A stretch of DNA of 64,000 nucleotides from assembly GCF_029760935.1 (NCBI RefSeq), contig NZ_CP121684.1:1984001-2048000 (forward strand), in the 5' to 3' direction. How positions within the stretch are numbered: position 1 is the stretch's first letter; every line of letters starts with the position of its first letter. The stretch comes from Lysinibacter sp. HNR. Lineage in GTDB: Bacteria > Actinomycetota > Actinomycetes > Actinomycetales > Microbacteriaceae. Under the pieces are notes generated by a model. That model searched no databases, was not told the DNA's origin, and worked only from the letters and a program-made list of their open reading frames with translations. The position numbers were made by a program, and so were the translations under genes. Below are positions 19,357-28,674 of the stretch, one piece after another.

Positions 19357-21211
19357 CCGTATCCGCCTCCTCGTCAAGCTTATTGAGGATATCAGCACCG
19401 GGTGTCTCTACATCAACCGTCCGATCCGCAACTGTATCAGCATCCGTGCTCATAGCGTCATCGGTGTTCATATCCACAACAGCATCGACACCAGCACCGC
19501 TCACAGCATCGGCGCCAGCACCCGTATCTGCATCCACCTGTACAGCAGCCTCCGTTTCCGCCCTCAGAGCGGCATCAGCGGCATCAACTTCTCGAGCTAG
19601 CTCATCATCCATCACATCGAAAATGTCGATAATCTCAGGATTACCAAATTTTTCTTGGAGGGCTTCTTCCGCTATCTTTGCTCTCTTACGCCACCCGGCG
19701 GCCTCTTCTCCACGCCCCAGGTCCTGAAGCACCTCCGCATACGCCAGGTAAAGGTCGGGGCTATAGCTAAACGCTCGGTTAGGGTCAAGCTGAGGGATTT
19801 CTAGTTCCTCGAGAGCCCGTTCCGTCTGTCCTAGGTCTAACCGCGCTCCAGAAAGTGCGATCGCTATTGAAACCTGCTCCTCGGCAGGAAATTTTTTACG
19901 GTCGACGCTTGCACCCAACTCAAGCGCACGATCTGGACGCCCCATCCCCCGCTCACAATCGATCATCATTGCGAGGTGAGTGTCAGAACCAGAGATGCGT
20001 CGATAGGTTCGAAGTTCTCGAAGGGCAAGCGCAAAGTCCCCTATCCGGTAGGCCGTGATGGCAAGGGTCTCCCGCACAATTGCGATTCGACCCGCGCGAC
20101 GCGACGCTGAAATAGCGTGTTGATGCGCAAGCTCTGGGTCGCTGTCGATGAGACGCACCACCATGGCAAGATGTTTCGCGACCAGATCTGCGTTTTCCGA
20201 GGCAAGGGTTTTCAACTCGAAACGAGCCCCCTTGTTCAGTTCGTTAGGTTGCAGATCGGATGGAAGCTCAGGATCGTTGTGACGGACACGCACGCTTCTG
20301 AGGCCACGCGCAAGAATCTCTTCCTCAGTCAGCTCACGACGTTCTCCGCTAAATTGCGATCTGTTGTCATTATCTCCGTAGAGCTTACGCCCCTGCCCAC
20401 CGCGCCGTGGACGGCCAGGACGATCAATCCGACCTCCCCGTTCCCGGTGATACTTCTTACGGTTTTCATCAAAACTTTCTTGGGGGTTGGAGCTATCACG
20501 AAAGTTTCGTTTCTCTCCTTGCGCACCGTCATGCGCGCTATCATTATTCCACCGTGCCCCACCTTTATCCCGAAAATCCCTATTCGGCTTACCGCGATCA
20601 CGAGAATCCCTATTCGGCTTACCGCGATCACGAGAATCCCTATTCGGCTTACCGCGATCACGAGAATCCCTATTCGGCTTACCGCGATCACGAGAATCCC
20701 TATTCGGCTTACCGCGATCACGAGAATCCCTATTCGGCTTACCGCGATCACGAGAATCCCCGCCCCATCGAGGCTCACCTGCACCGCGAAATTCCTTATT
20801 CGATTTACCGCCATCATGCGCAGAGCCATCACGATCATAGGGTCTCCGGGCATTTTGCTGTGTCCCCTCGCCGTATCGTGGCCGTCCAGAACGCGCTGGT
20901 CTGCCACCCAGATAGGAGCCCTCACCCCGCGACGACCGCTCACCACGATAAGAACCCTCACCCCGCGACGACCGCTCACCACGATAGGAACCCTTGTTCC
21001 CTCGATGACTCGCATTATCAGTTTGGGAACCATACGAGCGATCTGAAGAAGAATACTTACGTGTGGTTCCGTCTCCTGATCTTTCAGCAAAGGGCTTCTT
21101 GTTACCGTTCGGGCGCTTTAACTGTCCGTACTTTTTATCAGTAGAAGAATCACGAGAGTTGCGTGAACGCTCAACTCTACCGTCCGGATCGTTCTGATCT
21201 TTTTCAGACAT
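19325..21211 (-). CDS. TPR-like protein with Arg/Gly-rich disordered N-terminus
   Basis: 628 residues from the ATG at 21211 (GAGGAG seven bases before). Residues 1 to about 310 are disordered and rich in Arg, Gly, Asp, Ser and Asn, including 12-residue GSYRGERSSRGE copies and six copies of DRGKPNRDSR. Residues about 325-520 are helical and TPR-like (GDFALALRELRTYRRISG; YSPDLYLAYAEVLQDLGRGEEAA). The C-terminal 110 residues are acidic, Asp/Ala-rich. TPR proteins with such basic tails occur before the HAD-tlyA block in related actinobacteria; the RG/RD repeats suggest RNA binding, perhaps at ribosomes, which is inference. The strand opposite the repeats is open in several frames because each unit is 30 bases. 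Confidence 0.8.
   Translation of the reverse strand: MSEKDQNDPDGRVERSRNSRDSSTDKKYGQLKRPNGNKKPFAERSGDGTTRKYSSSDRSYGSQTDNASHRGNKGSYRGERSSRGEGSYRGERSSRGEGSYLGGRPARSGRPRYGEGTQQNARRPYDRDGSAHDGGKSNKEFRGAGEPRWGGDSRDRGKPNRDSRDRGKPNRDSRDRGKPNRDSRDRGKPNRDSRDRGKPNRDSRDRGKPNRDFRDKGGARWNNDSAHDGAQGEKRNFRDSSNPQESFDENRKKYHRERGGRIDRPGRPRRGGQGRKLYGDNDNRSQFSGERRELTEEEILARGLRSVRVRHNDPELPSDLQPNELNKGARFELKTLASENADLVAKHLAMVVRLIDSDPELAHQHAISASRRAGRIAIVRETLAITAYRIGDFALALRELRTYRRISGSDTHLAMMIDCERGMGRPDRALELGASVDRKKFPAEEQVSIAIALSGARLDLGQTERALEELEIPQLDPNRAFSYSPDLYLAYAEVLQDLGRGEEAAGWRKRAKIAEEALQEKFGNPEIIDIFDVMDDELAREVDAADAALRAETEAAVQVDADTGAGADAVSGAGVDAVVDMNTDDAMSTDADTVADRTVDVETPGADILNKLDEEADTDGTLSPENHA
20581..20760 (-). 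repeat. Six perfect 30-bp tandem repeats (coding)
   Basis: Six identical head-to-tail 30-bp units fill 20581-20760 with no mismatch. Read on the minus strand in frame they encode DRGKPNRDSR repeated, the last unit passing into a DFR variant just outside. Since 30 is a multiple of three, unit gain or loss keeps the frame. Sequence identity down to synonymous positions shows recent expansion or ongoing homogenisation. Confidence 0.97.
20911..20982 (-). repeat. Two 36-bp tandem repeats (coding)
   Basis: Units 20911-20946 and 20947-20982 differ at two positions; a third partial unit starts at 20983. On the minus strand they encode the GSYRGERSSRGE motif of the TPR-like protein's disordered region. 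Confidence 0.9.
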
Positions 21212-21436: not shown

Positions 21437-21554
21437 GTTCGGCGGTGTCCTACTCTCCCACACGGTCCCCCGTGCAGTACCATCGGCGCTGTGAGCCTTA
21501 GCTTCCGGGTTCGGAATGTCACCGGGCGTTTCCCTCACGCTATAACCACCGAAA
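21437..21554 (-). rRNA. rrf: 5S ribosomal RNA
   Basis: About 118 bases. Read on the minus strand it begins GTTTCGGTGGTTATAGCG and ends GGACACCGCCGAAC, the complementary ends of the 5S helix I, with CCCGGTGACATTCCG and the GAAGCTAAG loop region in between. It is the last gene of the 16S-23S-5S operon. Ends are placed by the helix and may shift by one or two bases. Confidence 0.95.
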
Positions 21555-21774
21555 CACTCGTGATACAACCAACCACCCACACCCCCACACACAAGGAAGA
21601 GGGGCGGGTTCTGGAGTAATCAACAACATGTTCCAATCACACATTATTTACTTACATCAGTTCTTGATCGTCTATCAAGAACCACAAAGTGGACGCACAC
21701 AACACACAACAATAACTGTCTTACACAACCCCACCACCACCATAAAATACAGGCGGGGTGAGTAAAGAATTTTT
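21555..21774 (-). other. 23S-5S internal transcribed spacer
   Basis: About 220 bases without a tRNA. It holds a perfect hairpin at 21660-21682 (GTTCTTGAT, loop CGTCT, ATCAAGAAC), which could be a processing or pausing structure. The rest is A/C-rich on the plus strand like the other rRNA spacers of this operon. Confidence 0.75.
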
Positions 21775-26996
<5,222 letters not shown>

Positions 26997-27425
26997 ATAA
27001 AAAGCAACAACCCCACCACCCACACAAGTGAACAGCACAGCTGCGCTAAACATAAAACAACACCACACACCCCCACAACAGCGAAAGCATGCAGCATCAC
27101 GAGTTCAAAACTGACACACAAATCAAAAACTGACTTGCATAATCAAATAAATAAACCAAAAAGTCCCCACAACACACACCACAACCAACCACAACGATCA
27201 GCCACAGCACATGCCACAGAAACCAAAAAATTGGCATATAACATTAGTGCACACTATTGAGTTCTCAAAGACCAGACACACCACAACCAACAAGCCACCA
27301 CACAAGCAACCCACCAGAAACGGCACACACCCACCAACAAAACAACCCCCACACAAGAGAGCATCCCACTAGCAAGCAAGAACCCCGTACAAGCCACAAC
27401 ACAACATCACGACCCCGGGGTACTT
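26997..27425 (-). other. rRNA leader region
   Basis: About 430 bases between the candidate promoter and 16S. The plus strand is strongly A/C-rich, so the transcript is G/U-rich. At 27249-27270 lies the conserved element (on minus CTTTGAGAACTCAATAGTGTGC) known from actinobacterial rRNA leaders, where it belongs to the antitermination/processing region. No gene is seen. Confidence 0.7.
27249..27270 (-). promoter_or_regulatory. Conserved rRNA leader element (boxA-like/processing)
   Basis: On the minus strand CTTTGAGAACTCAATAGTGTGC, about 255 bases before 16S. A close variant lies in the 16S-23S spacer (25155-25175). Pairs of this element are typical of actinobacterial rRNA operons and are thought to support antitermination or form processing stems. 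Confidence 0.6.
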
Positions 27426-27454
27426 CGAATACACTACGCCCAAACCCCACCCAA
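27426..27454 (-). promoter_or_regulatory. Candidate rRNA promoter
   Basis: On the minus strand TTGGGT (27449-27454) and TATTCG (27426-27431) are 17 bases apart, a weak but plausible -35/-10 pair. A GTACCCCGGGGT palindrome follows the -10. Other AT-rich sites further upstream (27700-27780) could serve instead, so this is a proposal. Confidence 0.25.
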
Positions 27455-27461
27455 CACAAAT

Positions 27462-27502
27462 CCCCACCACCCACCCACCCACCACACACCCCAAAAACCC
27501 CC
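27462..27502 (-). other. G-quadruplex motif upstream of rRNA promoter region
   Basis: The minus (non-template) strand reads GGGGG-T5-GGGG-TGTGTGGT-GGG-T-GGG-T-GGG-TGGT-GGGG. The last four runs have loops of one, one and four bases, the pattern expected for a very stable quadruplex. It lies in front of the candidate -35 box at 27449. Seen directly; the role is inferred. Confidence 0.75.
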
Positions 27503-27867
27503 AAAAAACAACACAAAACCCACCACAAACACCACCACCACAAACACACCCCGGGCGTGTCGCACACCACCACACCACCAACAACACAACACCCCAAAAC
27601 ACCCCAAAACACGAACGGCAAGGACCAGCACCCAATCTCTCCTGAGACCCGGCCCACCGACGAAAGAGCGCCACACAAAACGCTAGGAAACTCGTGTGAA
27701 TAAGGAACAATCACCCCGATATTACCTTGTCCAATTTTCACAAAATTGATATTTTTAATTTAGTTCAATAAACATATTGACATCCCCTCTCCCCCTGAAA
27801 GTCAATAAAAATCAACTAAATCCACACACTGGGTCTCAAAAATCAACTAACGAAAGAAACGAAATTA
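27503..27867. other. Divergent intergenic region, rRNA operon / carbonic anhydrase
   Basis: About 365 bases. 27503-27640 is extremely A/C-rich on plus with further C4 runs. From 27660 it becomes AT-rich; TTGACA at 27777-27782 on plus is a likely -35 box for the carbonic anhydrase gene, although the -10 is not clear. An upstream rRNA promoter could also lie here on the minus strand. Frames open in the C/A tract encode only low-complexity His/Pro/Thr peptides and are not genes. Confidence 0.55.
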
Positions 27868-28674
27868 ATGAGATTAAAACTAACCCCGTTGATCGCGATT
27901 ACTGCACTTTCTCTGGTCGTCAGCGGATGCACGGGCACCCCCGATTCACCGGACAGCACCCCTTCTGCAACAGACCACGCAGATGAGTGGTCCTATGTCG
28001 GAGCCACCGGACCCGATCACTGGGGGAATATCCACGGCGAATGTGCAATCACACACGACAGCACCCAATCTCCCATTGATATAACAGAAGAAAACCTTGT
28101 TGCCGGCGACTCCCTCTCCGCTCCAATATTTAACTATTCACCCAGTTCTTTTCGTGTCGAAAACAACGGACACACTATTCAAGCTGCACCTCATGATCTG
28201 AAGCAAAACTCCATCACGCTAGACGGCGACACGTTTTACCTCCAGCAATTTCACCTGCACAATCCCGGAGAGCACACACTAGACGGTGTCCAACCGGATA
28301 TGGAGCTACACCTGGTGCACACAAACGCTCAAAACAAAATAGCCGTTGTTGGAGTGATGCTCAACGGGGGTGCAGAAAATGCAGCTTTGGAAGAGTTGTT
28401 TACCACTATGCCCACAAGCACAACTTCCAAGGGTGACGAAATAGAGCTTGTTCACCCGATCGATCCCAACGATCTGCTCCCCAGCGACAGACGCATCGCC
28501 CGCTACACAGGGTCACTCACCACCCCTCCGTGCACCGAGGGAATCCTGTGGAACGTCTTTAAGGCCGCTGGCGAGGTATCAGCAGAACAAATCGATGCTT
28601 TTGCAGCGATTTTCCCCGATAACCATCGCCCGGTACAGCCACTCAACGACCGTCAGGTAACCAAAGTTGAGTAG
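27868..28674 (+). CDS. Alpha-class carbonic anhydrase, lipoprotein
   Basis: 268 residues. The N-terminus is a lipoprotein signal: a short basic start, a hydrophobic stretch, and the lipobox VVSGC with Cys21. The mature part is an alpha-carbonic anhydrase: QSPIDI at 67-72, QFHLHNPGEHT with zinc ligands His129 and His131, ELHLVH with His148, and GSLTTPPCTEG with the gatekeeper Thr. It hydrates CO2 to bicarbonate on the outer face of the membrane, perhaps helping CO2 capture or pH control. It stands alone, between the rRNA operon and a PP2C gene, and shares a bidirectional hairpin terminator with the latter. Confidence 0.95.
   Translation: MRLKLTPLIAITALSLVVSGCTGTPDSPDSTPSATDHADEWSYVGATGPDHWGNIHGECAITHDSTQSPIDITEENLVAGDSLSAPIFNYSPSSFRVENNGHTIQAAPHDLKQNSITLDGDTFYLQQFHLHNPGEHTLDGVQPDMELHLVHTNAQNKIAVVGVMLNGGAENAALEELFTTMPTSTTSKGDEIELVHPIDPNDLLPSDRRIARYTGSLTTPPCTEGILWNVFKAAGEVSAEQIDAFAAIFPDNHRPVQPLNDRQVTKVE

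Follow-up and report, generated by a model that had tools for sequence, protein, structure and literature searches.

A G-quadruplex motif at an rRNA promoter of Lysinibacter sp. HNR is probably an unselected part of a G/T-only linker between the promoter core and a conserved upstream element

The minus strand upstream of an rRNA operon of Lysinibacter sp. HNR carries a series of G-runs beside the promoter, and the locus raises the question of whether these form a quadruplex that regulates rRNA transcription or are a by-product of the way in which the surrounding DNA arose. To our knowledge, little is known about how actinobacteria control rRNA output through the DNA that precedes the promoter. 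The genome (2.918 Mb, a single contig) contains three rrn operons, and the window, that is, the whole stretch of 64,000 nucleotides analyzed here, includes operon 1 (Table 1). Beside this operon, positions 20400-20840 of the minus strand encode a predicted basic protein with repeated DSRDRGKPNR units, and positions 27868-28674 of the plus strand, divergent from the operon, encode a predicted lipoprotein that appears alpha-carbonic-anhydrase-like from its translation read by eye.

Table 1. Features of rrn operon 1 and its upstream region, in positions of the window.
Feature	Position	Strand	Basis or remark
16S rRNA, operon 1	25471..26993	minus	
Conserved leader box TTTGAGAACTCAATAGTGTGC	27249..27269	minus	
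GGGTTGC relic at the P2 site of operon 1	27301..27314	minus	Probably decayed
Start-site region ATTCGAAGTACCCCGGGG	27413..27430	minus	Homologous to ATTCCAAGTACCCC in relatives
P1 core promoter	27431..27460	minus	Homology to G003 and G019; family consensus
G-quadruplex motif	27462..27502	minus	Sequence read, G4Hunter-style score, shuffles
Pure G/T (keto) run, 91 nt	27462..27552	minus	Free of A and C
Upstream element CGACACGCCCGGG of P1	27550..27562	minus	13 bp, family conservation
Second G/T-only run, 50 nt	27563..27612	minus	Upstream of the element

The motif reads GGGGG-TTTTT-GGGG-TGTGTGGT-GGG-T-GGG-T-GGG-TGGT-GGGG, which agrees in full with the preliminary description of this DNA, as do its location on the non-template strand and its distance of about 470 bases from the 16S gene (469 bp from the end of the motif to the 16S start at 26993). 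Its strict core (27480-27462) contains four runs of at least three G with no loop above seven bases. Since the loops of this core have only 1, 1, and 4 bases and the G4Hunter-style score reaches 2.08 (maximal 25-nt value), folding in vitro is likely; ViennaRNA, with quadruplexes allowed and RNA parameters only, also placed a three-layer quadruplex at the motif. The two strands of the window together contain three strict motifs, this one included.

The promoter was analyzed on 103 rrn upstream regions gathered from the family and the order, the 16S genes of the family being found by a pattern of the 16S start; the relatives used look like members of the Microbacteriaceae. The common layout of the upstream promoter, P1, is CGACACGCCCGGG, 10-12 bp, a -35 box (often ATTTGcc), about 18 bp, a -10 box (TAATGT or TAAAGT) and, 3' of it, a conserved start region that ends in CTTGTCACCCCAAAGGTGCGG. 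Many regions also show a promoter P2, composed of GATTTGACA, about 17 bp, TAGGAT or TAAGCT, and AGAGAAGTTGCC; the leader box TTGAGAACTCAA comes next, and a TTGA(G/T)A(A/T)CTCAA box is found close to the 16S gene in nearly all family members. In operon 1, the -35 TTTGTG (27460-27455) and the -10 TAGTGT (27436-27431) are separated by 18 bp and followed by the conserved start region, where ATTCGAAGTACCCC, directly after P1, matches in the alignment ATTCCAAGTACCCC of G003. G003 and G019, whose P1 cores are homologous to that of Lysinibacter, represent two sister genera with 16S identities of 97.1 and 95.9%, respectively. On core homology, P1 of operons 1 and 2 is identified as the upstream rrn promoter of the family, in a form that we call a variant because its element lies farther from the -35 than the usual 10-12 bp. 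The rRNA promoter reported beside the motif is therefore genuine according to alignment with relatives; the candidate -35 given with it (27454-27449) lies a few bases away from the box that homology indicates, whose first base is separated by one base from the last G-run. A simple promoter scan gave no match, as expected for a non-enterobacterial promoter.

Because the motif lies upstream of the start placed by homology, it is predicted to be untranscribed DNA just upstream of the -35 and not leader RNA. Folding during transcription, as previously suggested, is excluded for the P1 transcript on the basis of this start, and an RNA quadruplex in the leader was ruled out on account of this position upstream of P1. 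The other effect suggested, that of supercoiling on polymerase loading, may occur. Operons 1 and 2 have the same sequence, including the motif, for 634 bp ahead of the 16S start; both show P1 plus a mere relic at the P2 position. The upstream region of operon 3 has only 304 bp in common with them; it contains an intact P2 and shows neither the motif, nor P1, nor the upstream element. The recurrence proposed for the motif thus holds for two of the three operons and fails in operon 3. Furthermore, the tandem promoters appear to be split between operons: P1 in operons 1 and 2 (L001 and L002), and P2 in operon 3 (L003).

A near-invariant 13-bp element defines the rrn P1 across most of the family. 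The element together with P1 was matched in 231 of 398 family genomes and 56 of 85 genera, a few hundred bp ahead of 16S genes in those genomes with listed 16S positions, while a reversed-pattern control gave no matches among the genomes listed. In about 80 rrn upstream loci (L007, L103, and L145 among them) it appears as CGACACGCCCGGG(ATGC). The literature search found no matching report of CGACACGCCCGGG. Most likely, some protein binds the element and P1 initiates downstream of it. WhiA recognises GACAC, and its Streptomyces targets include translation genes (PMC3781837). The whiA gene is present in the Lysinibacter genome; however, WhiA is also encoded in genomes where the element is absent from the rrn regions surveyed, and so it can be taken as a candidate binder only in the sense of a lead.

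The gap between the element and the -35 is 10-12 bp in 60 of the 72 mapped relatives, and the remaining long gaps correspond to tandem promoters or false element matches, with the exception of one clade of three genera: Lysinibacter (88 bp), G003 (67 bp), and G019 (67 bp). The Lysinibacter gap (27549-27462) takes up 88 nt of the 91-nt G/T run, which the genome repeats just once, at operon 2 (64 overlapping 60-mer matches, 2 x 32); a genome-wide pattern search (2.92 Mb) found pure G/T runs of at least 60 nt only at operons 1 and 2. G and T account for 88 of 88 gap positions (100%) in Lysinibacter, 61 of 67 (91%) in G003, and 65 of 67 (97%) in G019, in relation to 0.55-0.82 in the leaders of these genomes. 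This bias is focal in G019 and G003, with 0.97 and 0.91 in the gap against 0.47-0.61 in its flanks. Between Lysinibacter and G019, the gap shows nine G/T exchanges and no other substitution in an alignment that is uncertain, as are all gap alignments of this low-complexity DNA. Overall, substitutions within the gap are nearly always G/T exchanges, which is not the case in the flanks. In G003, extra GTTGTGGG-like copies beside the element distinguish one operon from the other, therefore repeat units come and go; these copies and the GGGT repetition in the Lysinibacter motif fit slippage. In G003 (L163 and L164, at about -650 to -610), the extra GTTGTGGG-like units give one operon a strict quadruplex motif. 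A tandem GTGTGTGGTTTT-type tract of G/T only, longer than 60 nt, was also seen in G005 (L165; contig 12, 153339-153414), and no rRNA gene adjoins it in the stretch read.

Shuffling of the 88-nt spacer generated a strict motif in 46% (mononucleotide) and 34% (dinucleotide) of the sequences, and shuffling of the 379-bp region in 56 and 40%, respectively. The motif is not commoner than composition predicts in either test and is unsurprising given the local composition, while the G/T composition itself is far from chance. Within the 103 rrn upstream regions, only three genomes have a strict motif on the sense strand: Lysinibacter, G159, and G003, where it occupies a different site and just one of the two operons. 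The spacers of G003 and G019 are G/T-rich and show no four-run motif. With operon 3, these nearest relatives, the 103 regions, and a 29-genus sample of P1 regions compared, conservation of the quadruplex in orthologous promoters is not borne out. The preliminary description had named absence from close relatives as the finding that would speak against its proposal, and this outcome weakens the quadruplex reading. In a sample of 25 genera, partly drawn with a G/T-rich query, nine genera have a four-run motif (loops of up to 12) on the sense strand at P1, and none has one on the opposite strand. We rejected a strand-specific recurrence of G-runs at P1 as a general rule, since it is gone in the broader 29-genus sample, where G-runs and C-runs are equally dense (1.21 and 1.28 per 50 nt; p=0.85). 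With a shuffle rate of 34-46%, rarity in the 103 regions and spacers of the nearest relatives without four-run motifs, the quadruplex is best regarded as plausible, but as a side effect of the expansion of a G/T linker that was not itself selected for.

The reading that we favor, with a probability of about 0.6, is the following. Operons 1 and 2 would be driven by the upstream promoter of the family, whose element is usually some 11 bp away from the -35. A G/T-only linker would have grown between element and core in the ancestor that Lysinibacter shares with the two sister genera, probably through slippage of short repeats of the GGGT/GTGG type on an rrn strand already biased toward G and T. 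The quadruplex motif would be the last part of this linker, the site of greatest GGGT-repeat expansion; it may fold for a short time where initiating polymerases leave negative supercoils behind them, and would not be selected as a quadruplex, initiation depending on the element and the P1 core. Two observations run counter to this. As the spacer exchanges are limited to G and T, the linker seems to be kept free of A and C, which points to a constraint or a local mutation process beyond slippage alone; slippage by itself leaves such exclusion across three genera unexplained, which gives room for selection on the linker. Moreover, G-run-rich P1 regions are present in some other genera too.

Among the other explanations, selection of the G/T-only linker itself, as a spacer free of hairpins, flexible or easy to melt, across which the displaced element could reach P1 with the quadruplex as an incidental feature, is rather unlikely, although it would account for an element unchanged in sequence while the gap became 67, 67, and 88 bp, for gap lengths that differ by 21 bp, or two helical turns, and for G/T purity retained over three genera at 96-97% 16S identity with hardly any gap substitutions other than G/T exchanges; 11 bp suffices in other genera, and only three genomes carry the linker. 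Mutational strand bias alone is another explanation. On the sense strand of the non-coding parts of the operon (21554-27640, minus strand), G/T reaches 0.71 in the ITS, 0.67 between 23S and 5S and 0.77-0.82 in the leader, with 0.54 in the 16S and 23S genes. Of the 14 longest G/T or A/C runs of the window, 13 are in operon 1, on the sense strand, and the bias of the P1 spacer weakly tracks that of the leader (rho 0.32, p 0.02). Deamination on the non-template or lagging-template strand of a heavily transcribed rrn operon is nevertheless unlikely to have given the G/T richness alone: the purest part is untranscribed from P1 and far purer than the leader, so that plain transcription-linked skew fails as a full account, the bias is focal in both sister genera, and 56-77 bp are not added by point mutation.

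Very doubtful is a G-strand quadruplex that folds in vivo and regulates P1, for example as a sink for negative supercoils or by holding the DNA accessible to RNA polymerase. Quadruplex folding can be favored by the negative supercoils that arise behind polymerases (review PMC13374982), and the single-base loops, the score, the position beside the -35 and the nine-to-none sense-strand count agree with such a role; against these stand the absence of the motif from operon 3 and the nearest spacers, its occurrence within shuffle expectation, the partly G/T-query-drawn origin of that count and the equal G- and C-run densities. A combined version, in which the rRNA promoter senses supercoiling because the G-strand of a selected linker without A or C folds and returns the conserved activator site to the P1 core, is the most speculative and highly improbable.

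The quadruplex proposal is mostly explained by composition, and the interest of this locus lies more in its linker and its conserved element. The three sister genera constitute a natural experiment in which the element has been shifted by 56-77 bp of G/T-only DNA.

No relevant work came up in the literature search, which covered quadruplexes at rRNA promoters of bacteria and the rrn promoters of Microbacterium. In general, promoter-proximal G-quadruplex motifs resemble the one described here in having four short-loop G-runs on one strand adjoining a core promoter; this motif differs in that it is not conserved, is expected from composition and sits inside a far longer G/T-only tract. In relation to WhiA binding sites (PMC3781837), the upstream element contains the GACAC core but is a longer, fixed 13-mer tied to the rrn P1. 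Finally, the operons share with actinobacterial tandem rrn promoters the sigma-A-like -35/-10 pairs, which precede a conserved leader box and the 16S gene, and P2 of operon 3 is like them in its TTGACA, TAAGCT, and downstream GTTGCC; here, however, P1 and P2 are divided between operons and the upstream element of P1 is displaced by a G/T linker.
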